Source of the DNA: a virus
DNA length: 40,245 bases
Reading direction: 5' to 3' (one strand)
Virus record (IMG/VR): IMGVR_UViG_3300025322_000075
Span: 1 to 40,245 of that record
Shown: positions 15,914 through 39,750 of the stretch, piece after piece
How the letters are laid out: every line of letters starts with the position of its first letter
Numbering within the stretch: position 1 is the stretch's first letter
Program-made: the position numbers and the translations under genes
The notes under the pieces: generated by a model
The model's input: the letters and a program-made list of their open reading frames with translations, nothing else
Told to the model about the DNA's origin: nothing
Database searches by the model: none

Positions 15914-16610
15914 GCGCCACCTCCTCTGACCAATCAATTGTTGGAATTTGCCAGTCACCTGGATGCTTCACGACAGCTTTCACCTTTTCCCAGTGGCGCT
16001 CATAGACGTGAAAACTGCCGACAGTTAAGTGTAGGACGCTAGTTTCCTTATTAAGCAACGTTGCAACCACGTCGGCAACGAACCAGAAGAATGGTAAATC
16101 ATTACGGAGCCCAAACATAGCGTCCTGGCTCCTCATATGCACGATGGTTTGCAGCTTATTCTTTCTGAGAAGAAACTGAAAATACATCGTGCATGGAATA
16201 TCTCGGACCCCTGGCCTAAAATGACGAGGTCTGTTGATGTGGGCGATAGCACGTCGTGAATCTGGATCACGTTTCAACTCAGCGACAACCCACTTCAATG
16301 GAGCCTTGTCATAGCCCCACAAAAGATAACCATAATTCGAGCTCAAGGTGCCGTCAACATTGAGCATATCCTTCCAAATCCCAGCATGTTCGGTGATTGA
16401 TACATCATTTTTATCGGCCTTGATATACCAAGCTAGTTCAACGGCAAAATAGTCAAGGTTCATCGGCATCAGTTTATGGTAAATGAACCGCTGATCATTT
16501 TGAAATGAGAAGCTCCAATTTATGATCTCCTTTGTTGGTTGCCCGCGAGGAGCTACAAAGTCCCCGTAACCAATAAGAGGTGCGTAAATTAGTGCCTGCC
16601 AGGGCATCAT
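15888..16610 (-). CDS. Thymidylate synthase / pyrimidine hydroxymethylase family enzyme
   Basis: 240 residues. Catalytic Cys140 in DIPCTMYFQF; phosphate-binding RDPDSRR and MRSQD; conserved His201 and Tyr203 in SFHVYERH. At the position of the Asn that selects uracil in thymidylate synthase (E. coli Asn177), the alignment of GLRNDL with GLPFNI puts Asp171. Asp there is known for dCMP-specific enzymes such as T4 dCMP hydroxymethylase. So the product may be 5-hydroxymethyl-dCMP (or 5-methyl-dCMP) rather than dTMP; this alignment was made by eye. Overlaps the kinase stop by 4 bp. Neighbours supply deamination and phosphorylation steps. Confidence 0.88.
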   Translation of the reverse strand: MMPWQALIYAPLIGYGDFVAPRGQPTKEIINWSFSFQNDQRFIYHKLMPMNLDYFAVELAWYIKADKNDVSITEHAGIWKDMLNVDGTLSSNYGYLLWGYDKAPLKWVVAELKRDPDSRRAIAHINRPRHFRPGVRDIPCTMYFQFLLRKNKLQTIVHMRSQDAMFGLRNDLPFFWFVADVVATLLNKETSVLHLTVGSFHVYERHWEKVKAVVKHPGDWQIPTIDWSEEVALVVSKLTT

Positions 16611-17545
16611 TTCAAAGCCTCCAGGTAAGATGCCATTGTTTCTTTTCCCTTGAAACGTGCGACATATGCAGGGTGTGGTAATTCATAGTGGGCACGTTGG
16701 CCGAGAAAATCTCGCGCCACGTTGCCCAGCGCCACAACCTGTCCATTAAAACCTTTAAGAAATTGCGACAATTGCCGTTGGTGTTCCTCATTAGGGACCT
16801 TCACTGAATTAACGTTAGTCCACATGCAGCGTTCTTCCCCTATACCGACCTCCTCGAGCCCTTGAGCCATCGTTGCAGACGCACCAATGTACGAAAACCA
16901 AGGCCACCCAAGATGATGGCCGCGGCTATTAGCAACGTCACCAACGAAGAGATAATCAGCAAAACGAGTACCAACATAATCCTGAAAAGGGTGCGTAGCT
17001 TCCATAAAAGCCAACGACAATACCTGGTCATAAAGATTTGAGCACGTCGCCGCAAGATGTCCGCCCTGAAGATCAAGGTTGTAAGCACGCCAGTCTCTCC
17101 TATGTGAATTTTGCTGGTACAGTTTAACGTACCAATCGTGCAGTTGCTTAATCTTTTCATCTGACGCGTACATTTCCTCACGTTCTTTTGAGGAAGCTAA
17201 GTGGGCGCTGGCCTGCACGTCCCTATCAGCCCTGTGCGTTATACAATATAATACACCATATCGTAAAGCCACACGGTCAAGTAAACGTCTCATGAGAGGG
17301 AACTTGCTACCTTCACGATAGACGCCGGCATACACGTACTCTGACGGCCACCACCGGTCAAGTATGGCTAATGTTGCGTTATGCCTGGTGGCCCAACGAA
17401 AAGCTGCGAGGTGGTAAAGGTCCATTTTCCCAGGCCACCGATATGTTAAGTGCAGTGACCTGGAATGAGGGACCAATTGACGCAGGGCATCCACTATGGT
17501 GGACTTCCCAGTAACGTCACAACCGTCTACAACTATTATTGGCAT
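16607..17545 (-). CDS. Deoxynucleotide kinase fused to a uracil-DNA-glycosylase-like domain
   Basis: 312 residues from ATG 17545 (GAGGGACCT upstream). The N-terminal ~175 residues are a thymidylate-kinase-type P-loop domain: VVDGCDVTGKST (residues 5-16), LDRWWPSEYVY and an Arg-rich lid-like stretch. Residues ~190-300 follow the UDG-superfamily layout: FVGDVANSRG in place of GEAPG, a Trp-Pro-Trp/Phe-Ser-Tyr-Ile-Gly segment, WTNVNS, VVALGNVARDFL and ELPHPAYVARF, the last like the HP motif. The catalytic first motif is degenerate. The kinase part probably makes dNDPs from the product of the neighbouring synthase. The second domain may bind or test the base. Fusion and fold are by motif; activity unproven. 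Confidence 0.8.
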   Translation of the reverse strand: MPIIVVDGCDVTGKSTIVDALRQLVPHSRSLHLTYRWPGKMDLYHLAAFRWATRHNATLAILDRWWPSEYVYAGVYREGSKFPLMRRLLDRVALRYGVLYCITHRADRDVQASAHLASSKEREEMYASDEKIKQLHDWYVKLYQQNSHRRDWRAYNLDLQGGHLAATCSNLYDQVLSLAFMEATHPFQDYVGTRFADYLFVGDVANSRGHHLGWPWFSYIGASATMAQGLEEVGIGEERCMWTNVNSVKVPNEEHQRQLSQFLKGFNGQVVALGNVARDFLGQRAHYELPHPAYVARFKGKETMASYLEALK

Positions 17546-17925
17546 AGGTCCCTCAGATCTGGTGGCTTCCACCCCTTCGGTTTCTTTACATCCCAGAGAG
17601 TGCCCCGCTTGCTTTCTGTCTCTGAGCGAACCTTCTTTTTCTCCATGTTCGCCTCATGAACCCTCTTGAAGGCCTCAGCCTGCCGTGAGGCAGAGAAGCC
17701 CATAAGGTGTAACGTTCCCGAGGCCACGTAGATGAGGTCGATCATGGCATCTAGCGATCCTTCCAGGTCGCAATCTTCCTGCGCCTTTTCCCACTCCCTC
17801 AATTCTTCGCGAAGAAACAGAAGACGGGTAACGTACATGAAGTGCGGCAAAAGCTCAGGCTTCTTACGGTGCCAGTGCAGGCTGTAGTGCTTATGAAACT
17901 CAGTTACTTTCTTGAAGACGTTCAT
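17536..17925 (-). CDS. MazG-like nucleotide pyrophosphohydrolase
   Basis: 129 residues from ATG 17925, with TTGGAGGGACC before it and an ATGA overlap with the methyltransferase stop. Has the MazG pattern: EELREWEKA then EGSLDAMIDLIYVASGTLHLMG (EExxE ... DxxxD acidic metal-binding helix), and a C-terminal DVKKPKGWKPPDL typical of phage MazG. Would hydrolyse unwanted dNTPs or NTPs such as dUTP. Together with the deaminase, synthase and kinase it forms a nucleotide-pool cluster. Confidence 0.85.
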   Translation of the reverse strand: MNVFKKVTEFHKHYSLHWHRKKPELLPHFMYVTRLLFLREELREWEKAQEDCDLEGSLDAMIDLIYVASGTLHLMGFSASRQAEAFKRVHEANMEKKKVRSETESKRGTLWDVKKPKGWKPPDLRDLCQ

Positions 17926-20516: not shown

Positions 20517-22757
20517 TTAAATTAGATCTGACTCAGGTTCGGAATGCTTTCGCTCTTTATTGTAAAGATCGATAACATCAAGAGGGCTTTCAGAGTAAAG
20601 GTTTGGTTGAAGGACAACGAAATTTGCCTTCTTAAAAAGAGTTACACCTCGATAATGGTAAGGGTATTCCAGATAAGGAAAAACTTGTGAGCCAAAAGTA
20701 GCGCGCAAATGTTCCATAACCTCTTCATGACGCGGAACAATTATACCATTTGCTTTAAGCACTTTAAAGAATTCAGATTCCTTAAAGATGTTATACTTGA
20801 GCTCTCCTTCCTTTATCAAGACCTCGATCTCTACAAGCCACCTATTATGTGAGCGTTGAATTACAGACGTTTTTGCTAGGGTCATGGGTGGAATTGCCTT
20901 AGCGTTCCAATCGCCAATCGTATAGTTCTTGAGATACCAGAATAAAACGTCCATGTTCTTTTCAAACCAATCAGCCAAGTATACATAATAGTTAATAGGT
21001 TTTGGGGCAACTGGCACGCACCTGGCGATATAGAACCGCCGGTCGTCAGCCACGAGGTGAACTGGTCGTTCCTGGTTCGTAAGAGCAAAGATGTGGGTGT
21101 GATTGCTTACCTGGTACGATGGAACGTACTTCTCGCTGACTGTCGTAGTTGGGTCGGCAATGAAGCCCTTAACGTGGTCAAGGAACTCGTGCTTGTTAAA
21201 GTCAGTAAACTCGTTAAGCACAAGTAATGTCTTACAGGCGAAGAGTGAATTGTAGCCAGAAAGGATGATGTCTGGCTCAACCACACAATAGTTGTTGAAA
21301 CCTACAATGCTTCCGAAGTTGTTAAAGATCAAGCTTTTACCGACACCTTGCTTGCCTTGAATGAGGAAGACTGAAGTCGGCCTATTTCGAGGATTTTGGA
21401 CAAGGTTAGCAAGGCGTCTAATGAATTCAAGCCGGTCTTCTGGGTTCAATAGCCATTCAAGGTGTTCAAGGAACGGTGAAACGTCGCCCTCGCGCGGTTC
21501 TAACTTGCCCGGTGTCCATCTATTGTAGGAATGTCTTCCATGTTCTTTACTGAAATAGAGCCGCGGCTGGTCTGGTTCATAAGCAAATTCATCAAAAATT
21601 CGCGCCTCAGAGTTTGGGCCCTCAATAAGGTACTGGCTTGGTAACAGACCAAACCGGGACTTCGTGAACCGTCGAAAATGATCATCATACTGTGACTGTG
21701 AGAGTGAACGACCAGTAGTAAAGTGCACGTAGTTGACTGAGTGTTGGATAAAGACCTTAACATAAAACTCGCGAAGATCTTCCGCCTTGGTAATGCACGT
21801 GAAGGCGACGTTGGCGACGCCCATAAAGGGACGGGCCTCGGCATAAAGTCGCCGTACCAGTGAAAGGTATTCAGGAAGTGGGTCAGCAAGATCCCACTTT
21901 GGGTAACCTTCAACGATCATTCGTGGTAAGTGAACGATCTTGATACTATTGACGATAGGGCTTAGTGAGCGTGCCCAGCTTTCCGCGTTCTCTTTCCAAT
22001 TGGCGTCAGCGTCTGGCCAGATTACTACGTCACGACCACGCAAGGGCAGGAAGTCGGTACGATTAAATCCCTGCAGCCCTCCCATTGGGGAGATAAGCGG
22101 CTGATTAGGGAAATGTGGAATGCCCGCATCACACGTCTTTTCTCCCTCGACGATAATAACCGGCCCTTCTTTATTGAGTGACGGGAGGTTGTAAAACTGA
22201 CGTAGGGCGATTCCCTTGTGAAGCCATTGCGCCAACCCGTCCTTCATGAAGTAGAAGGTTGGGATAAACTTTTTGGCTGGCTTCCCTAGCGCACCATTGG
22301 GACGTATCTCCTCGAACCGCGTAACCGTACCGAGTAAGTGTCCCTGACGCGCACGGTATTCATGGATTTTAACGAATTGAAAACCTTCAGGAGTTGACGG
22401 CCGTGGTGGTTTCTCATCAGTCGCCGTCAGGTTCTCAAACTCACGTTCCCTGGCAGCTGCCGCTACAGTGGTTGCCGCAAGCCGAGCCTGTTCAGTACTT
22501 ACCTTGATAGGCCATAGGCCTTTTTGGCGAAGTTTCTCGATGAGAAGGTCCTGGTTGTCGCAAGCCGCGTGACACTTAACGAGAACCTTGCCGTCGGCCG
22601 CTAACGTAACGTGCATCGACGCCTGCTTGTCGTCGTGCCCGGGACAATGGCCTTGCCACTCTGGTGAAGTCCCCTGAGCCCTGATGTGCTGAAGAAACTG
22701 ATGAAGTGAAACCCCTGAAGAAACAACTGGTCCTGAACCGTCTTGCGCGGTCGCCAT
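20517..22757 (-). CDS. Primase-helicase (zinc + Toprim-like + D5/DUF5906-type helicase)
   Basis: 746 residues from ATG 22757, where AGGGGG is well placed; a TTG at 22781 is weaker. N-terminus has a CHC2-like zinc binder (CPGHDDKQASMHV ... VKCHAACDN, residues ~38-66). Residues ~200-255 hold Toprim-like VEGEKTCD and PDADAN. The C-terminal half is an SF3-like helicase: FLIQGKQGVGKS (Walker A at 468-475), LLVLNEF (Walker B) and IFALTNQERPV. It would unwind DNA and lay primers for the Pol A enzyme. Domain order and length fit phage primase-helicases with a DUF5906-type motor. Confidence 0.9.
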   Translation of the reverse strand: MATAQDGSGPVVSSGVSLHQFLQHIRAQGTSPEWQGHCPGHDDKQASMHVTLAADGKVLVKCHAACDNQDLLIEKLRQKGLWPIKVSTEQARLAATTVAAAAREREFENLTATDEKPPRPSTPEGFQFVKIHEYRARQGHLLGTVTRFEEIRPNGALGKPAKKFIPTFYFMKDGLAQWLHKGIALRQFYNLPSLNKEGPVIIVEGEKTCDAGIPHFPNQPLISPMGGLQGFNRTDFLPLRGRDVVIWPDADANWKENAESWARSLSPIVNSIKIVHLPRMIVEGYPKWDLADPLPEYLSLVRRLYAEARPFMGVANVAFTCITKAEDLREFYVKVFIQHSVNYVHFTTGRSLSQSQYDDHFRRFTKSRFGLLPSQYLIEGPNSEARIFDEFAYEPDQPRLYFSKEHGRHSYNRWTPGKLEPREGDVSPFLEHLEWLLNPEDRLEFIRRLANLVQNPRNRPTSVFLIQGKQGVGKSLIFNNFGSIVGFNNYCVVEPDIILSGYNSLFACKTLLVLNEFTDFNKHEFLDHVKGFIADPTTTVSEKYVPSYQVSNHTHIFALTNQERPVHLVADDRRFYIARCVPVAPKPINYYVYLADWFEKNMDVLFWYLKNYTIGDWNAKAIPPMTLAKTSVIQRSHNRWLVEIEVLIKEGELKYNIFKESEFFKVLKANGIIVPRHEEVMEHLRATFGSQVFPYLEYPYHYRGVTLFKKANFVVLQPNLYSESPLDVIDLYNKERKHSEPESDLI

Positions 22758-22819
22758 TAAGCCCCCTACCAAGTTGATCAATAATAGGTGCGCCTTATAA
22801 AACCATGGCGCGAAATATT

Positions 22820-23972: not shown

Positions 23973-24080
23973 GATAGGCTCCTATAAATGTACGCGCCCG
24001 GCGCCAGGCCCCTCCCCAGGTGAGGTAAGGGCACTGGCACCAGAGGCGCACGGTTAACGTCACGAGGACTAGTAGTTTCA

Positions 24081-24407
24081 CTAGTCTATCTTGGTCTCGT
24101 CGAGCTTGTGCTGCCCGCACCAGTCAGCCTTGAACACGACCGGCCAACCAAGGGCGCCATCGGGCGATGGTGCCCTGCGCCGGCACCGCCCGACCTCACC
24201 TGCCTTGAGTGCGAACCACATGCACGTCTGACAGAGTAGGCCAGCGCTCCTATGCGCCCACGGATCAGCCTTCCGCGGTGGGTTCCACACCGGCTGCTGA
24301 GGCGATGGATGAATCTCGGTGACAATCTCAGGCTGCTTGTCGCCGTTTTTCACGTAGTGCCGCGGGTGCTTGTAGTGCATCTTACGTTTACGGTTATGCT
24401 TCTTCAT
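24081..24407 (-). CDS. Cys-rich phage protein
   Basis: 108 residues, AAAGGAGAGTCGT before ATG. Very basic N-terminus (KKHNRKRKMHYKHPRH), then CQTCMWFAL ... GRCRRRAP ... GWPVVFKADWCGQHKLD. The four Cys and the Gly-Trp-Pro-Val/Trp-Cys-Gly-x-His pattern occur in a common small phage family of unknown function; likely zinc or Fe-S binding. Confidence 0.75.
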   Translation of the reverse strand: MKKHNRKRKMHYKHPRHYVKNGDKQPEIVTEIHPSPQQPVWNPPRKADPWAHRSAGLLCQTCMWFALKAGEVGRCRRRAPSPDGALGWPVVFKADWCGQHKLDETKID

Positions 24408-24418
24408 ACGACTCTCCT

Positions 24419-24625
24419 TTAATGGTTAAAGAACCCATGCCCTGGTACGCGCACAAACGAGGTGTCGTCTACTAGCATCCTCGCTACCTCGAACGTGGAC
24501 ACTTCAAACTCTGCGAGAATGACCGCCTTACGACCCCACACCCTTCCTTTATCAAGGTCATGGTCCGTGAGGAAGACGCGGTGGAACTCGGGCCCCGGCT
24601 CAGTGACCTCCACAAGGTAGAACAC
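24419..24625 (-). CDS. Small hypothetical protein, 68 aa
   Basis: GTG at 24625 overlaps the stop of paralogue B (TAGTG). Begins VFYLVEVTEPGPEFHRVF and includes LVDDTSFVRVPGHGF. The longer open frame up to 24715 runs back over paralogue B and is less likely. No domain recognised; strands and charged residues suggest a small beta fold. Confidence 0.6.
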   Translation of the reverse strand: MFYLVEVTEPGPEFHRVFLTDHDLDKGRVWGRKAVILAEFEVSTFEVARMLVDDTSFVRVPGHGFFNH

Positions 24626-24999
24626 TAGACTTGCCTCACTATGCCCCGGCGCTTGAGTTCCGGCAGGTAATAGGCGATGATACGTTCGGGAAGTTGCCGG
24701 GTGACGAGACCACACGTGACCGCCTCCGCCGTCAAGTCTTTGGCAGTGAACTTATCAACCCCCTTCGCCACGAGGTTTCCCGCCGCTTGACAGATGACCC
24801 GCGCCTGAAGAGGAAGCGAGGCGACCGCGCCAGGGACGTCGGACCTGGGATCGTACACGTACGTAGTGAGGGAGTTTTTCACTGGCGGCGTTATTGTAGG
24901 TTGGCCCTCAACAGAACTTGAAGGTGAGGGTGGTCGACGATCTTCCGGGGACCTCGCGGTCCTCATCTTACCCGTGTCTTGCGGGTGCTCGATCTTCAT
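24625..24999 (-). CDS. Small winged-helix-like paralogue B
   Basis: 124 residues, TTAGGAGCTATC before ATG. A Pro/Ser/Thr-rich, probably disordered N-terminus of ~60 residues, then the shared core: LPLQARVICQAAGNL ... LVTRQLPERIIAYYLPELKRRG. Related to proteins at 19083-19370 and 25644-25898. First gene after the promoter at 25053-25081. A DNA- or RNA-polymerase-binding role is plausible for such a family but unproven. Confidence 0.8.
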   Translation of the reverse strand: MKIEHPQDTGKMRTARSPEDRRPPSPSSSVEGQPTITPPVKNSLTTYVYDPRSDVPGAVASLPLQARVICQAAGNLVAKGVDKFTAKDLTAEAVTCGLVTRQLPERIIAYYLPELKRRGIVRQV

Positions 25000-25052
25000 G
25001 ATAGCTCCTAAGGTAGTTGTGGGTGAGCAAAAGGCTCATTTGCCACGGGACC

Positions 25053-25081
25053 ATTGTATCACGTGGGAGGTCAAAAGTAAA
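25053..25081 (-). promoter_or_regulatory. Leftward sigma-70-like promoter (family member 2)
   Basis: -35 TTTACT (25076-25081), 17-bp spacer beginning TTTGA, -10 TACAAT (25053-25058). Its start would lie about 45 bases before paralogue B. Confidence 0.75.
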
Positions 25082-25474
25082 TACCCTGGGGATTATCCGA
25101 GAAAATATAGTTACTATAATTGATCAGCCTAAGAGTACTTGGGTGGTAACCAACAATAAGAATATCTAATAACTTAAGTAACTCCGAGTAACTAGGCTCT
25201 ATATAACTAAATAAAATATCATAAAATATGATTATATATATAGGGCCAAAATATAACAGTTACATTGGTTATCCTGCAGTTATAAATCGTTCCTGGCGTG
25301 TTAATTGACTACCTTCAGGGGTCCGCGGTCCAAGATACGAGTTGCGTGAAATTGGTTCTTTGGTCCTACCTGGCGCGCCATTTGTCTCACGGCCGGCTCC
25401 TCGGCCCGAGGTTCTTGGTCCCCACCTGGCGCGCCTGATGGCAATCTCCCCGGTCCGCGGACCGCGGGACTTGG
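25082..25474. other. Non-coding region: AT-rich block then GC-rich palindromes (origin candidate)
   Basis: No gene is supported here. Bases ~25090-25300 are strongly AT-rich, with repeated AGTAACT, ATCATA/TATGAT arms and a TATATATATA run. Bases ~25320-25470 switch to GC-rich palindromes: TGGCGCGCCA, GGTCCGCGGACC, and a repeated GGTCCGCGG. An easily melted stretch next to repeats, between two early operons, could be a replication origin. This is inference only. Confidence 0.4.
25354..25435. repeat. Direct repeat pair ending in GGCGCGCC
   Basis: Two 26-base copies at 25354-25379 and 25410-25435 share GGTTCTT, GGTCC and ACCTGGCGCGCC, with a one-base shift between them. The ends are AscI-type palindromes. 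They are 56 bp apart. Confidence 0.75.
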
Positions 25475-25504
25475 TTAAAAAACCAGGGCCTGACGACCCT
25501 GGTT
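25475..25504 (-). terminator. Intrinsic terminator, leftward
   Basis: On the minus strand, AACCAGGG and CCCTGGTT form a perfect 8-bp stem with an 8-base loop, followed at once by T6 (A6 at 25477-25482). It ends the short operon of paralogue C and the micropeptide. Confidence 0.85.
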
Positions 25505-25508
25505 CTCC

Positions 25509-25589
25509 CTACTTGTCCTGGTCGTCCTTCCATTCCCGCCAGATGTTCCAGAACACCACTACGAGCAACACGAGCCCAAGTAATTCCAC
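25509..25589 (-). CDS. 26-aa membrane micropeptide
   Basis: GTG at 25589 with AAAGGAGACTGAG ahead; peptide MELLGLVLLVVVFWNIW then REWKDDQDK. A single hydrophobic helix with a charged C-terminus, stopping right before the terminator. Start signal and terminator placement support it. Confidence 0.6.
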   Translation of the reverse strand: MELLGLVLLVVVFWNIWREWKDDQDK

Positions 25590-25643
25590 CTCAGTCTCCT
25601 TTCAAGAGAAAAGAGGAGCGGGTTTCCCCGCCCCTCCACCCTG

Positions 25644-25898
25644 CTACGACTTGATGATCACACCTTTCTTGTTGAGAGTCGGCAGGTAGTACTGCACGAT
25701 TCTCGATGCCGGTTGCCGCGTCTTCATTCCGAGTTCCACCGCGACTTTCCCAATCTCTTCCGGCGTCGCGAAGGTTCCGAGTTTCTCCATTGCGTAGAAC
25801 ACATACTGTGCCTGACGCGGGAGAAGCTTCGGCTTCTCGGCCCCGTCAACGAGCGAGTACTGCTTGCTCGTGCGGGATGTTTCGATGACGATTTCCAT
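25644..25898 (-). CDS. Small winged-helix-like paralogue C
   Basis: 84 residues from ATG 25898 (AGGAGAACTATC ahead); the frame runs to 25925 without a site. Core: LPRQAQYVFYAMEKLGTFATPEEIG ... MKTRQPASRIVQYYLPTLNKKGVIIKS. Clearest of three paralogues; the shared TRQ-x-x-x-RIV-x-YYLP-x-L run fits a recognition helix and wing. It is the first gene of the leftward arm, just below the multi-operator control region. Likely an immediate-early product; target unknown. Confidence 0.8.
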   Translation of the reverse strand: MEIVIETSRTSKQYSLVDGAEKPKLLPRQAQYVFYAMEKLGTFATPEEIGKVAVELGMKTRQPASRIVQYYLPTLNKKGVIIKS

Positions 25899-25939
25899 GA
25901 TAGTTCTCCTAATATCCGGCCTCATTCGACCGTAAAAGC

Positions 25940-25968
25940 ATTATAAAATGAATGAAATGAAAAGTACA
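25940..25968 (-). promoter_or_regulatory. Leftward sigma-70-like promoter (family member 1)
   Basis: -35 TGTACT (25963-25968), 17-bp spacer, -10 TATAAT (25940-25945; perfect). First promoter of the leftward arm, about 35 bases before the paralogue C start. Confidence 0.78.
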
Positions 25969-25989
25969 CAACTGTTACACTTTGTTACA

Positions 25990-26017
25990 TTTATAGGAGA
26001 CTGACAATTTCTGTCAG
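25990..26017 (-). promoter_or_regulatory. Second leftward promoter overlapping the TGACA operators
   Basis: -35 CTGACA (26012-26017), 16-bp spacer, -10 TATAAA (25990-25995). The -35 and spacer are covered by the first TGACA/TGTCA operator, so a protein bound there would block it. Confidence 0.5.
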
Positions 26018-26054
26018 TTGCTGACAATTTCTGTCACGTGACAATTATTGTCAG
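26001..26054. promoter_or_regulatory. Three TGACA-TGTCA operator copies
   Basis: CTGACAATTTCTGTCA at 26001-26016 and again at 26021-26036, and the perfect palindrome TGACAATTATTGTCA at 26039-26053. Centres are 20 and 17-18 bp apart, near two helical turns, which allows cooperative binding on one face. Probably sites for a host or phage repressor or activator. The binding protein is unknown; the paralogues are candidates. Confidence 0.75.
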
Positions 26055-26063
26055 TTGTACTTG

Positions 26064-26108
26064 AATACCACATGGTGAAATACCACATTATGAAATGCCA
26101 CATGGTGA
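26064..26108. repeat. Three tandem 15-bp repeats (iteron-like)
   Basis: AATACCACATGGTGA (26064-26078), AATACCACATTATGA (26079-26093), AATGCCACATGGTGA (26094-26108), followed by AATG. Copies 1 and 3 contain the palindrome CCATGTGG-like core CCACATGG. Could be iterons of an origin or activator sites. Confidence 0.8.
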
Positions 26109-26116
26109 AATGAGGA

Positions 26117-26135
26117 GTATAAGTAGAACTTATAC
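26117..26135. promoter_or_regulatory. 19-bp inverted repeat, operator-like
   Basis: GTATAAGT-aga-ACTTATAC, perfect 8-bp arms with a 3-bp centre. A weaker copy (TATAA ... TTATA) follows at about 26139-26155. Different from the TGACA operators and the Fur box next to it. Confidence 0.7.
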
Positions 26136-26149
26136 CAGTATAAAGGAAA

Positions 26150-26177
26150 CTTATAGCTATGTTATTGATAATGATAA
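26150..26177 (-). promoter_or_regulatory. Leftward promoter whose -35 lies in the Fur box
   Basis: -35 TTATCA (26172-26177, 4/6), 16-bp spacer, -10 TATAAG (26150-26155, 5/6). Bound Fur would cover the -35. This is the outermost leftward promoter of the early arm. Confidence 0.45.
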
Positions 26178-26185
26178 TCATTATC
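26167..26185. promoter_or_regulatory. Perfect 19-bp consensus Fur box
   Basis: GATAATGATAATCATTATC, identical base for base to the E. coli Fur-box consensus; the symmetry extends one more base on each side. Ferric uptake regulator with Fe2+ binds such sites and usually represses. It lies in the divergent control region, upstream of the leftward genes, and no such site was noticed elsewhere. Confidence 0.9.
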
Positions 26186-26296
26186 ATTGGGCCGAGTTCC
26201 GAGGTTCGTGTGTCTCGCGCCAGGGGACTTGGGCCCTGGGGGGTAGGGCGTGCGATCAGACGAAATTTTTATAGTGCTACCCACGCGTTAGACGGC

Positions 26297-26494
26297 TCAA
26301 AGTTTAGTCTTCGGGTTGTGTAACCTATGCCACCGCCTGTTGGTATAGAGTTTCCTGCGCCGTCTGGCGGGATCATTGGCATAGCGCTTATAGCACGCCC
26401 TACACTCTGCCCGCAACGCGGTCCCCTTAGCCGGCCTAAAGTTGGTCAGGTCCGCCTCAAGTTCTTTACCACAACGTCGGCATTTTTTAAGCAT
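26297..26494 (-). CDS. Small zinc-ribbon protein
   Basis: 65 residues. Two Cys pairs (KKCRRCGKELEADLTNF ... CRACYKRYA) followed by a very basic tail (RRRRKLYTNRRWHRLH). The ribbon resembles the N-terminal part of the HNH protein at 11576-12001 without the nuclease. No Shine-Dalgarno site precedes the ATG, and a -10 lies 6 bases upstream, so the mRNA may be leaderless. Sits inside the divergent control region, which makes a DNA-binding role possible. Confidence 0.65.
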   Translation of the reverse strand: MLKKCRRCGKELEADLTNFRPAKGTALRAECRACYKRYANDPARRRRKLYTNRRWHRLHNPKTKL

Positions 26495-26499
26495 AGTCC

Positions 26500-26505
26500 A
26501 TTATA
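26500..26505 (-). promoter_or_regulatory. -10 element for a possibly leaderless mRNA
   Basis: TATAAT on the minus strand, with its downstream end 6 bases before the ATG at 26494, so transcription would begin at or next to the start codon. The -35 region is poor. Confidence 0.45.
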
Positions 26506-26535
26506 TAATGCCGCTCGATTGATAGATACTGTCTG

Positions 26536-26564
26536 TTTAATCTTTATTTTCAAGGGCTTATAAT
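26536..26564 (+). promoter_or_regulatory. Rightward promoter of the late (virion) arm
   Basis: -35-like TTTAAT (26536-26541), 17-bp spacer, perfect -10 TATAAT (26559-26564). The start would lie ~28 bases before the first virion gene. The only good rightward promoter I found. Confidence 0.6.
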
Positions 26565-26598
26565 GTTCCTGCGTGCGCTATATTTCAAGGAGCCTTGA

Positions 26599-26784
26599 AT
26601 GCCCAGCAAATCACCAGAGCAAGCCGACTTCATGCGCGCCGTCGCCCATGGCATGAAACCACGTGCAGGTGGTCCCTCAAGGGCGGTCGCGCGGGAGTTT
26701 GTCGACGCCGACATGGCAAAGCAGAAGATGACCGCCAGTAAGCTTCGCGGCAATCCGGGGCATTCGCGGAAGGAGAGCTACTAG
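26599..26784 (+). CDS. Small conserved packaging-region protein
   Basis: 61 residues, CAAGGAGCCTTGA ahead of ATG. Sequence PSKSPEQADFMRAVAHGMKP ... PSRAVAREFVDADMAK is a short, basic pattern common at the start of podovirus packaging operons. Function not known to me; first gene of the late arm, overlapping the next start (TAGTG). Confidence 0.75.
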   Translation: MPSKSPEQADFMRAVAHGMKPRAGGPSRAVAREFVDADMAKQKMTASKLRGNPGHSRKESY

Positions 26785-27074
26785 TGTCCAACCTCACTGA
26801 TGCCCAGAACAAGAAAGCTCTCCGTGATGTAGTTCGCGAGGCTTTTGATCGATTGGGAGGTGCAGATTGGTTAGTGACCTTTTCTCAAGCCAACTGGGAG
26901 AACGCGCGAGTTTTTGTCTCCCTAGTCGGTCGGCTCATCCCCACGGAGCTTGTGGGTAAGGGCGGAGGCCCCCTGACCGTGATCATCAAAAAGGAAGGTG
27001 AGGAAATTCCTGTAGGACGCTTGATTGAGGGTTCAGCGGAACCACTCCCAGACGAGCCGCGGCAGTTAAACTAG
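26784..27074 (+). CDS. Putative small terminase subunit
   Basis: 96 residues from GTG 26784, overlapping the previous stop. Helical N-terminus (NKKALRDVVREAFDRLGGADWLVTF), VFVSLVGRLIPTEL, then KGGGPLTVIIKKEG. The segment 'LIPTEL...GGPL' resembles short TerS-like proteins that precede terminase genes. It lies two genes before TerL. Assignment rests on position and weak similarity. Confidence 0.55.
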   Translation: MSNLTDAQNKKALRDVVREAFDRLGGADWLVTFSQANWENARVFVSLVGRLIPTELVGKGGGPLTVIIKKEGEEIPVGRLIEGSAEPLPDEPRQLN

Positions 27075-27075
27075 T

Positions 27076-27285
27076 ATGGCTCAAGCCTACATCGTAGGAC
27101 AACTAGCGTGCGGCACGTGTGGCAGCGTCATGTACGTGGTCAAGGGCGCGTCGCTCGGGGTCCGCGATCCATCAACTGATAAGGTTGACCCAGAAATTAC
27201 GGTGCGGTGTGCCCACGCAGATTGCCAGGAGTATGGCGTCCTTCGTAAATTTGTAATGACGCCCCTGGAGCTTACGGATGCCTGA
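27076..27285 (+). CDS. Small zinc-ribbon protein
   Basis: 69 residues: CGTCGSVMYV ... VRCAHADCQEYG, a two-knuckle zinc ribbon with strands around it. Overlaps the TerL start by 8 bp. Likely a packaging-region accessory protein; function unknown. Confidence 0.7.
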   Translation: MAQAYIVGQLACGTCGSVMYVVKGASLGVRDPSTDKVDPEITVRCAHADCQEYGVLRKFVMTPLELTDA

Positions 27286-28645
27286 GCTAGTCCTCCCCCA
27301 CAATTTTACGCCCCGCCCGTACCAGCGCGACTTCATGTCGTTCATGGACCGTGGCGGGACACGCGCGTGCGCGGTGTGGCATCGACGGGCGGGCAAGGAC
27401 CTTGTGGGAGCGCACCAGATTGCTAAGTCCGCCTTCCAACGCGTAGGGTTGTACTGGCACCTGCTGCCCACGCAGCGCCAGGGCAGAAAGGTCGTTTGGG
27501 AGAATATCACCACTCAAGGTGTCCGACTCATCGATGCCGTCTTTCCCCCGGAAGTACGGGCGGCGGAGCCAAATTCGACGGAGATGTCGCTCAAGCTGCG
27601 CTCTGGTAGCCTCTACCAGGTCGTTGGGTCGGACAACTATAATACCTTGGTGGGGGCGAACCCAGTAGGCGTCTTGTTCTCTGAGTGGTCGCTTGCTGAC
27701 CCGCGCGCGTGGGATTTTGTGCGACCAATCCTTCGAGAGAACGGTGGGTGGGCAGCCTTCTTGTATACCCCACGCGGTTACAACCACGCCTTTGAGCTTT
27801 ACCAGATCGCTCAGCGCAATCCCTCGTGGTTTGTTTCACTCAGGACCGTTCAAGACACTAACGTTCTCTCGCCGGCAGATATTGAGGAGGAACGGCGGGC
27901 CGGGATGCCTGAAGAGTTAATCCAGCAAGAGTTTTACTGTGATTTTTCGTCAGCATCGATTGGTTCAGTGCTCGGGCAGCAGTTGGCGTTGGCGGAGCGT
28001 GAGGGTCGTATTACGGACATTCAGCTCTGGGACCCTGAAGGTGGGCCGGTCATCGCCTCGTCAGACATTGGTTTCAGGGACTCTTCCGCGTGGTGGTTTT
28101 GGCAACTTTACCCGGACAAGATCGCCCTCATTGATTATGAGGAGGAAAGTGGGCTCGAGGCGCAAGATTGGATTGACAAGCTGAAACTCAAGCCGTACGA
28201 GTACCAGATGGTCTACCTCCCACACGACGCGAAGGCAAAGACGTTCGCTACACGTTACTCGGCGCAGGAACAGTTCATCGATAGCGGGTTGCCAACCACC
28301 CTGCTGCCTATGATGCGTATAGCGGACAGGATTAACGCCGCGAGGGCAATTTTTCCTAGGTGCGTGCTCCAACGCGACCTGTGCGCGCGCGGCATCACCG
28401 CCTTACGTGCGTGGGCGTACTCTTATGATGACGAAAGAAAAATGTACTCGAAGGAACCGTTCCATGACTGGGCGTCGCATGGAGGAGACTCGTTTACTTA
28501 CGGGGCGTCAGTGCTTGCGCACCACTTCAAGAAGATAAAGGAAGAGGATAAGAAGGTTAGCGTGGCGAAGGGAAGCCACTACGCCTTTTCACTTGACCAA
28601 TTACATGATAAACCGGCGAATGGTCGGCTCAGGGAGCGTGTTTAA
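27278..28645 (+). CDS. terL: Terminase large subunit
   Basis: 455 residues. ATPase: HRRAGKD (Walker A, residues 35-41), GVLFSEWS (Walker B region), LYTPRG coupling motif. Nuclease: SSDIGFRDSS, LPHDAKAK and HDWASHGGDSF give the metal-binding acids of the RNase H-like domain. This is the motor that cuts and packages DNA into the procapsid through the portal. Length and motif order are normal for a full terminase. Stop overlaps the portal start (TAATG). Confidence 0.95.
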   Translation: MPELVLPHNFTPRPYQRDFMSFMDRGGTRACAVWHRRAGKDLVGAHQIAKSAFQRVGLYWHLLPTQRQGRKVVWENITTQGVRLIDAVFPPEVRAAEPNSTEMSLKLRSGSLYQVVGSDNYNTLVGANPVGVLFSEWSLADPRAWDFVRPILRENGGWAAFLYTPRGYNHAFELYQIAQRNPSWFVSLRTVQDTNVLSPADIEEERRAGMPEELIQQEFYCDFSSASIGSVLGQQLALAEREGRITDIQLWDPEGGPVIASSDIGFRDSSAWWFWQLYPDKIALIDYEEESGLEAQDWIDKLKLKPYEYQMVYLPHDAKAKTFATRYSAQEQFIDSGLPTTLLPMMRIADRINAARAIFPRCVLQRDLCARGITALRAWAYSYDDERKMYSKEPFHDWASHGGDSFTYGASVLAHHFKKIKEEDKKVSVAKGSHYAFSLDQLHDKPANGRLRERV

Positions 28646-34110: not shown

Positions 34111-34142
34111 AGGAACCGCGGGGACTTCGGTCCCCGCTCCTT
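34111..34142 (+). terminator. Hairpin after the coat gene
   Basis: GCGGGGAC-TTCG-GTCCCCGC, a perfect 8-bp stem with a stable TTCG tetraloop, flanked by AGGA/TCCT. No long U run follows. Likely sets the high coat expression apart from later genes by partial termination or RNA stability. Confidence 0.65.
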
Positions 34143-37583: not shown

Positions 37584-39238
37584 GCCTTAGACCTGTACGT
37601 TCATTGATGTCGACCGTGCCACGTCGCGCTAGTGTGACGAAGACGCATGAGGCGTATACTTATCCAGCACCAGTTGGCGGCCTCGATTTTATGACGCCGT
37701 TAACTCAAATGGACGCAAAGTCTGCGATCAAGGCATCAAACGTCTTGGTACGTAATTACGGTCTTGAGTTCCGTTCTGGTTGGCGTCGGTGGGCTTCACT
37801 CATTCCCGGTGAAGTTCGCACGATCATGCCGTATAACCCGCCGCGGGGACTTGGTCCGTCGGCGATTGCTAAGCTTTTCGCCGCCTGCTCTGACGGTAAG
37901 ATTTATGACGTTACCGCGCAGACGAACGAGTCAACCATCCCACCTGTTTCTGCGACAATTTCAGGACAGTTGGAGCCCGGCGAATTTAGCTGGGTAAACT
38001 TTGCAACACCAACGAACAATTTTCTCTGCGTCGTCTCCGCTGGTGGTGGTTACTGGACCTTTGACGCTACTGGTGGATGGATAAACCAAACAGCTAATAT
38101 CTCTGGCGCAGGAAGCGCTGCCGCGATTGACTTTGACTTTGTGATGTCATGGAAGAATCGGCTCTGGTTCATTAAGAACCTAACGGCTGACACCTATTTC
38201 CTTGGCGTTAACTCCATTATCGGAGCTTCTACCGCCTTTGACTTTGGGCCCTTGCTGGTGCATGGTGGGGACATAAAGGCCATGGCCTCATGGACCGTGG
38301 ACGGTGGCGATGGAATCGATGATAAACTCATAATTGCAGGTTCTGAAGGCGACCTCTTAATCTATGAGGGAACTGACCCTTCAAGCGCTGCCGCGTTCCG
38401 TATCATCGGCCGCTGGTTCATTGGGCGCCCGCCAAATGGTCGACGGTTCATGGCACGTTATGGTGGTGACCTGGGGATGATTACCCAGTTTGGTCTCGTC
38501 TTTCTTTCACGCCTACTTCAGCAGACTGGTGTGACCGTTGATAAGGATGCTTCGGCTTCGTTCAAAATAAACCCGATATTCGCTAACTTTGTCCGTAATA
38601 CTGTGCTTACGCAGTATTGGGAGATTCGTTACCTGCCGCAGCTTGAAGCCATCTTTATCAATATGCCTGACGCAATTGATACTAGGAACAGGCAATGGGT
38701 GATGGACATAAACTCACGCGCCTGGTCAACATTTGATGGCGTTCCGATGCTAACGTGTGAAAATTTCCAGGGTGAACTTTACTTTGGCACGCTTGATGGC
38801 ATCGTTGGCAAGGCTTTTGAGGAGAATGCCTCATCCGACGGAATTCTTTCAACAGGTGCTGTGGGAAATGACATAGGTATTGAGGTCCAATCCGCCTTTG
38901 TCCCGAACGGTGATCCTGTGCGCATAAAGCGGTTTTTGCATGCAGCCTTAACATTTCAAGGACAGCTTAAGCCATCAATCGCTGCCCAAATAAATCCTGA
39001 TTGGGGATTTGGGAGCACTCCTGGTTCGCCAGTTTTTATTGGAACTGATCCATCTTTATGGGACATAGCTCTCTGGGACCAAAGTCTCTGGTCAGGTGGT
39101 CCAGAAATCACTTTCCGTGGCTGGTTTGGTATTGCAGGCCTCGGTTATTTTGGAAGTCTTCGTTTTACTGGACGTGGTCTTCCAAGAACATACTTTGTTA
39201 ACTGGACGTTCGTCACAGAACCTGGGGGTTTAATGTGA
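37580..39238 (+). CDS. Large beta-rich tail / DNA-stabilisation protein (gp10-like by position)
   Basis: 552 residues, mostly beta strand with repeated Trp/Phe/Gly motifs (LWFIKNLTADTYFLG, DLLIYEGTDP, RQWVMDINSRAWSTF, SLWDIALWDQSLWSGG). Starts with YTYPAPVGGLDFMTPLTQMD, typical of tail-hub proteins that follow the adaptor in P22-like order. Probably forms a beta-propeller ring of the tail hub. No enzyme motif. Confidence 0.7.
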   Translation: MSLRPVRSLMSTVPRRASVTKTHEAYTYPAPVGGLDFMTPLTQMDAKSAIKASNVLVRNYGLEFRSGWRRWASLIPGEVRTIMPYNPPRGLGPSAIAKLFAACSDGKIYDVTAQTNESTIPPVSATISGQLEPGEFSWVNFATPTNNFLCVVSAGGGYWTFDATGGWINQTANISGAGSAAAIDFDFVMSWKNRLWFIKNLTADTYFLGVNSIIGASTAFDFGPLLVHGGDIKAMASWTVDGGDGIDDKLIIAGSEGDLLIYEGTDPSSAAAFRIIGRWFIGRPPNGRRFMARYGGDLGMITQFGLVFLSRLLQQTGVTVDKDASASFKINPIFANFVRNTVLTQYWEIRYLPQLEAIFINMPDAIDTRNRQWVMDINSRAWSTFDGVPMLTCENFQGELYFGTLDGIVGKAFEENASSDGILSTGAVGNDIGIEVQSAFVPNGDPVRIKRFLHAALTFQGQLKPSIAAQINPDWGFGSTPGSPVFIGTDPSLWDIALWDQSLWSGGPEITFRGWFGIAGLGYFGSLRFTGRGLPRTYFVNWTFVTEPGGLM

Positions 39239-39750
39239 TAGTTTGCCCACGCACGCCTGAGCAGGCAGCTCTTCTGTTCTCGTTCTTAAATGAACGCGGG
39301 TCGCCGGTGCGCGCATCACCTGAACTTCGGCTGATTGGTCACGTTACTAATCATGAGCCGCATATGATTAATGCAGTTGTTGCTTATGACAGCTTCATTG
39401 GGCGTGTATGCTCAATGCACATTGCTGGTGAAGGTGTAAACTGGCTTGATAAGACTTTCCTCTACGTTGCTTTTCATTATCCCTTTGTCCTTTGCGACTT
39501 TGTGTCGATTATTGCAACCGTGCCAGGGGATAATGAAAAGGCGCTTAGGTTCGATAAACGTATTGGTTTTAAAACCTTTGACATAATTAAGGATGGGTGG
39601 AAGCCAGGCATCTCTCTACACGTTCTTAAAATGGATAAGAAAGATTGCCGATGGTTGTCACGTATCAAACAACCATCTTTCGTAAATTTAAGCGCTATTC
39701 AACCAGTAGAGGTGTTTAATGTTCAGCCAACGGCTCCGGGAATGCATTAG
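39235..39750 (+). CDS. GNAT-acetyltransferase-like virion-region protein
   Basis: 171 residues, GTG overlapping the previous stop. AVVAYDSFIGRVCSMHIAGEG, FVSIIATVPGDNEKALRFDKRIGFKTFDIIKDGW follow the GNAT beta-alpha pattern (N-x-K/A-A ... x-x-x-GF). Such GNAT-like proteins sit before the internal virion genes in many podoviruses (T7 gp13 type); catalysis is uncertain. Overlaps the next gene by 32 bp. Confidence 0.7.
   Translation: MIVCPRTPEQAALLFSFLNERGSPVRASPELRLIGHVTNHEPHMINAVVAYDSFIGRVCSMHIAGEGVNWLDKTFLYVAFHYPFVLCDFVSIIATVPGDNEKALRFDKRIGFKTFDIIKDGWKPGISLHVLKMDKKDCRWLSRIKQPSFVNLSAIQPVEVFNVQPTAPGMH

Follow-up and report, generated by a model that had tools for sequence, protein, structure and literature searches.

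Fur boxes of the E. coli-type Fur regulon are non-coding sites of two overlapping 7-1-7 units next to promoter-like sequence, and the palindrome described here shares their consensus, their architecture and this kind of setting. However, the present box is a predicted one in the control and packaging region of a phage, with no iron gene nearby. A Fur-type box is likewise carried on a phage in the case of the phage-borne sitABC operon (Lambda_4C10), but there it precedes a host-type metal transporter operon, whereas the present box precedes phage replication and terminase genes. The packaging region of lambda-type phages (cosQ-cosN-cosB) likewise includes the site of a host DNA-binding protein, the IHF site I1; in the present window, however, i.e., the whole stretch of 40,245 bases analysed here, no cosQ, cosN or terminus was recognised. 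A further parallel is FURTA, in which multicopy DNA also bears a Fur box, but this is an engineered plasmid assay, and titration by the phages considered here is hypothetical. A search of the open-access literature gave no report of Fur boxes at phage packaging ends, in cos or in lytic early regions, and the passages on cos and cosQ that were consulted mention no Fur-type palindrome.

The palindrome and the main control region

The window is a virus contig without end repeats. Its leftward arm encodes primase, polymerase, helicase, ligase and thymidylate synthase, and its rightward genes, starting from 26599, encode terminase, portal and capsid proteins. Proteins of the rightward arm are related to those of the Myxococcus phages Mx8/Mx9 and the Stenotrophomonas phage BUCT555, and among cultured phages the most similar capsid protein (66% identity) is that of a phage infecting Stenotrophomonas. 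A search of genome contigs returned no relative for TerL and only distant ones for the MCP (33-48% identity), and therefore no host was assigned. Comparison of positions 24000-28000 with phage records gave no useful sequence relatives, and neither a tRNA nor an Rfam family was found in the window.

The main non-coding gap (25926-26296, 371 bp), flanked by the 65-aa zinc-ribbon gene and the 93-aa gene, separates the leftward replication arm from the arm with the terminase, portal and capsid genes, and we regard it as the genome's main control region. It contains the Fur-type palindrome and three other repeat families (Table 1). The TGACA..TGTCA dyads (26002-26057), which look operator-like and are predicted to form an operator array, and the TATAA..TTATA dyads (26116-26157) are absent elsewhere in the window; the direct repeats at 26064-26111 are a possible element of a replication origin. 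The minus-strand RNA of 26002-26057 folds well (-21.5 kcal/mol, z -4.3).

Positions 26167-26185 read GATAATGATAATCATTATC and are identical to the 19-bp Fur consensus printed in PMC3145626 (19/19, 0 mismatches; 18/19 on the opposite strand), as an earlier note on this DNA had claimed; an E. coli-type Fur is assumed for the host. The symmetry, which the same note extended by one base on each side of the box, is exact over 21 bp: the perfect palindrome TGATAATGATAATCATTATCA at 26166-26186 has 10-nt arms (26166-26175 and 26177-26186) around one central base and comprises two overlapping 7-1-7 Fur units. The site has both the sequence (GATAATGATAATCATTATC / TGATAATNATTATCA) and the dyad symmetry of a Fur box, and it is non-coding by the ORF map. 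That such a match would hardly arise by chance is borne out by an expectation of 1.7e-7 from the composition of the window and by window shuffles, in which no match to the consensus was found even at <=3 mismatches. Known sites can be far weaker, for example the functional Fur boxes of sci1, which match only 11-13/19 (PMC3145626).

The earlier note had also placed a minus-strand promoter (TTATCA/TATAAG) on the box, pointing into the early arm. The box does sit upstream of the leftward replication arm. The promoter sequence itself is present at 26177-26150 but is weak: it scores 5.8 on a sigma-70 matrix with approximate frequencies, on which 396 sites in the window score >6.5, and better leftward candidates abut the box or lie just downstream of it. 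One of these has its -35 touching the edge of the box; the other, with the top leftward score, has its -35 about 21 bp downstream of the box.

Table 1. Features of the control region and its surroundings, in positions of the window
Feature	Position	Strand	Basis or remark
DNA primase, leftward replication arm	20517..22781	-	
93-aa protein, first leftward gene past the box, possible winged-helix DNA-binding protein	25644..25925	-	model of modest confidence
Control region, non-coding, flanked by leftward genes	25926..26296	.	ORF map, repeats, gaps
Three TGACAATTNNTGTCA dyads, spacing 20 and 17 bp	26002..26057	.	operator-like repeats
Three 18-bp direct repeats AATACCACATGGTGAAAT, 15-bp spacing	26064..26111	.	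iteron-like
Tandem pair of 21-bp repeats with a TATAA..TTATA dyad inside each copy	26116..26157	.	operator-like
Candidate promoter TTTATA-17-TATACT	26116..26144	-	score 11.0, top leftward score in the control region
Candidate promoter ATAACA-17-TATACT, -35 abutting the Fur box edge	26137..26165	-	9/12 consensus bases, score 7.4
Promoter-like site TTATCA-16-TATAAG	26150..26177	-	score 5.8, weak
Fur-consensus palindrome	26166..26186	.	19/19 match, perfect dyad, expectation 1.7e-7
65-aa zinc-ribbon protein	26297..26494	-	phrog_1035, E 4e-5
Likely small terminase subunit, 96 aa	26784..27074	+	by-eye likeness to the TerS-like ORF upstream of the L037 TerL
Large terminase subunit	27278..28645	+	phrog_2, E 8e-28

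The 93-aa gene has a paralogue at 24625-24999(-), with E 5e-9 between the two, and modelling suggests that both may encode winged-helix regulators; no significant fold match to the 93-aa protein was obtained with Foldseek. A Fur-family identity for this protein was considered and rejected, since the Zur/Fur/PerR chains in the Foldseek results all had E >1 and the sequence search was empty. On the other side of the gap, the zinc-ribbon protein resembles the N-terminal region of phage proteins in the endonuclease VII/HNH families, and its sequence is conserved in the relative L036. The likely small terminase subunit gave no family match. The box lies on the 5' side of the large terminase gene, 1.1 kb to the left of its start.

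Occurrence of the palindrome in relatives and in other viruses

Five further contigs of the same virus, with 99.7-100% identity to the window, have the box in an identical context and with no variant inside it, so that an assembly error can be dismissed. Among diverged relatives (TerL 27-54% identical), a Fur-type site (>=14/19) upstream of TerL was found at 0/25 loci, each of which had at least 1.9 kb of sequence upstream of TerL; the box is therefore probably not ancestral to the wider group. The earlier note had asked if related phages keep the box: it is kept in the near-identical contigs and absent at the diverged loci. L036, the sole relative at 90% TerL identity, has a sequence that starts 150 bp short of the box position.

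Two of the strain contigs differ locally from the window. In one (L024), 16 differences are clustered at 26335-26402, in the middle of the zinc-ribbon gene, the rest being identical; this cluster is read as an allele exchange. The other (L025) is near-identical except for six substitutions within 19 bp (34116-34134), just past the capsid gene.

Beyond the relatives, the exact 19-mer was found in 29 IMG/VR stretches representing 12 independent viral families, nine of them with the box in intergenic DNA, whereas a control palindrome of equal composition was found in five stretches, all within ORFs (0 intergenic). Of the nine intergenic families, five, among them the present phage, have the box 0.4-3 kb 5' of TerL; comparable loci, at which the Fur palindrome is likewise intergenic and at most a few kb 5' of TerS/TerL, are L006, L010, L013 and L019. 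One family of 13 contigs (L010/L011/L022) retains the exact 19-mer across clades at 79-86% identity. In this family the exact box adjoins a terminator-like repeat and lies between the small and large terminase genes, and some members (L007, L012 and L027) have a second Fur box 3 bp off.

With the 15-bp core, TerL was within 2.5 kb of the intergenic match at 12/37 loci, compared with 2/19 for the control core; in 11 of the 12 the match was 5' of TerL. This excess is modest and of marginal significance (Fisher 0.07, or 0.03 when the exact-19 families are added). When all 15-mer palindromes were considered, coding matches as well, their proximity to TerL did not clearly differ from that of the control, and a general association of that kind was discarded.

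In cultured phages, the raw matches to the Fur palindrome numbered 488 records compared with 14 for the control. However, this is not a clean measure, as the T5-like matches examined are coding and the control has more stop codons in its frames; the T5-like matches were excluded as coding coincidences, and 488 versus 14 therefore overstates the effect. For example, the match in UTK0008 encodes a membrane peptide (MILIIILIL), and that in phiR2-01 falls in a deoxynucleotidase gene, the same gene being named in Klebsiella phages. As a positive control, the search recovered the promoter of the phage-borne sitABC metal transporter (Lambda_4C10). Long gaps in vibriophage helene and in phiTE contain five Fur-type sites each, where <=0.2 would be expected, and exceed shuffles. 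In vibriophage helene 12B3 (L066, 533-2306) the sites are clustered in a long non-coding gap, and in vibriophage 1.187.O (L304, 1-767) three clustered sites lie in a long non-coding gap by winged-helix genes; both clusters are near a record end. In the Pectobacterium phage phiTE (L065, 713-2179) the five sites lie in 1.5 kb of non-coding DNA that precedes a gene for an HNH endonuclease.

Fur-type palindromes at packaging ends

The packaging-termination signal of lambda-type phages is cosQ. Lambda, phi80, N15, 21 and HK225 each have, at the right end, a Fur 7-1-7 palindrome 4-6 bp to the left of cosQ CGGGTCC, and in mEp213 and PhiR12_1 one is found at the same distance from CGGGTCC in cos-like sequence. 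These seven palindromes score 11-14/14, and the DNA further to the left is unrelated between the phages; the probability of 11/14 for a random 15-mer is about 1e-4. Similarly, Fur-type sites above the level of shuffles occur 97 and 129 bp from the right end of PY54, 49 and 102 bp from the right end of YeP1, in which the terminase begins at the left end, and, as a pair, inside the 343-bp terminal repeat of phi92. No Fur-type site was found at the right ends of HK97, HK022, phiKO2, P2 and T7. In the window, the sequence past the box reads TTGGGCCGAGTTCC and has no CGGGTCC, so by sequence the present palindrome is not of the cosQ-adjacent kind, though it may work alike.

Possible roles of the palindrome

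The explanation that we favour, tentatively, is that the palindrome could be a genuine operator for host Fur acting on a leftward promoter, and would belong to a recurrent class of Fur boxes at packaging ends or ahead of terminase genes. It is preferred because of the 19/19 match with its 21-bp symmetry, the intergenic position abutting a -35, the recurrence in other phages and the conservation of the cosQ-adjacent palindromes. Two dimers of iron-loaded Fur would cover 26166-26186; bound there, Fur would occlude the 26165-26137 promoter and shut or damp it, and might spread to its downstream neighbour at 26144-26116. The first leftward regulator gene and the replication arm would then be expressed more in iron-poor cells. 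We infer Fur binding at the palindrome from its sequence and, more weakly, an effect of the box on leftward transcription. Against this explanation, the top-scoring leftward promoter lies downstream of the box and not under it. Moreover, the absence of the box at the 25 diverged loci and of any site at five right ends argues against it, and a role other than early transcription is suggested by the recurrence at packaging ends.

Since Fur-type boxes recur at packaging ends, a switch of the early promoter is only one of several readings. The location of the box within 1.1 kb upstream of the terminase and the packaging-end pattern were both missed at the first reading of this DNA, and the pattern is the more novel part. 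Unrelated tailed phages would, on the favoured explanation, place their Fur boxes either at packaging ends or in the gap preceding the terminase. The similar signs at the packaging ends of lambda and other phages suggest that phages may often sense or exploit host iron regulation. It is possible, albeit doubtful, that several unrelated groups of tailed phages build a host-Fur site into the packaging end, next to cosQ in lambda-type phages, close to termini or terminal repeats in others and ahead of the terminase in the present phage, by which iron status would control either DNA processing or late or early transcription.

A serious rival, which we nevertheless judge to be unlikely, is that control of the early promoter is beside the point and that host Fur, bound next to the place where packaging starts or to a terminus, influences the processing of DNA ends, packaging itself or transcription through that place. 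The cosQ-adjacent palindrome conserved at 4-6 bp in seven lambda-type phages argues for this role, as do the sites in the terminal repeat of phi92 and those that PY54 and YeP1 have at 49-129 bp from their right ends. The position of five of the nine intergenic exact-19 families upstream of TerL, together with the 5' bias of the intergenic 15-mers, is also consistent with it, but the proximity to TerL exceeds the control only marginally, no cos site or terminus was recognised in the window, and Mx8, a relative of the present phage, is a headful packager.

Titration of Fur is a weaker rival. Replicated phage genomes might act as a decoy that withdraws Fur and derepresses iron uptake by the host, which is conceivable in principle because a Fur box on a high-copy plasmid titrates Fur in FURTA (PMC3145626). 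The box is perfect and presumably of high affinity, and three to five boxes are clustered in the gaps of the vibriophages and phiTE. However, there is a single box per genome here, the copy number would be too low early in infection, and the conserved position in lambda-type phages would be unneeded for titration; a decoy role is thus rather improbable.

It is also quite improbable that the dyad serves a regulator of the phage itself, namely the possible DNA-binding protein encoded by the first leftward gene. The remaining repeats of the gap, which form three families, and the possible winged-helix pair (25644-25925 and 24625-24999) are consistent with such an operator. However, the dyad, unlike the other repeats of the gap, fits the Fur consensus at every base, an identical dyad recurs in unrelated phages, and the 93-aa protein lacks a significant fold match. 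A chance palindrome, or part of an RNA hairpin or terminator with no Fur function, is very improbable, for although the palindrome forms a weak stem made up entirely of A/T pairs (-7.8 kcal/mol, z about -2), it has no T run and no G/C-rich stem and was not called as a terminator, the expectation of the match is minute, and the control palindrome was not found in non-coding phage DNA.

Should Fur bind these sites, iron status would feed into the life cycle of the phage itself, beyond the iron or toxin genes that phages carry. Were phages of several groups indeed to build a host-Fur site into the packaging end, cos would contain a host-factor site so far not recognised, much like that for IHF. 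The cosQ-adjacent palindrome makes the question testable in laboratory lambda and E. coli K-12, for which fur mutants and iron chelation are standard, and a positive answer would provide a simple rule for spotting iron-responsive phages in metagenomes.

Two further genes of the window were noted in the course of the annotation. The gene at 16607-17572(-), which adjoins a thymidylate synthase gene, encodes a single protein that resembles thymidylate kinase in its N-terminal part (phrog_761) and uracil-DNA glycosylase in its C-terminal part (PF03167, slightly below the cut-off); a possible function of this protein is in altered-base DNA metabolism. The gene at 39235-39750(+), next to the lysis and tail genes, encodes an Acyl-CoA N-acyltransferase (phrog_4470).
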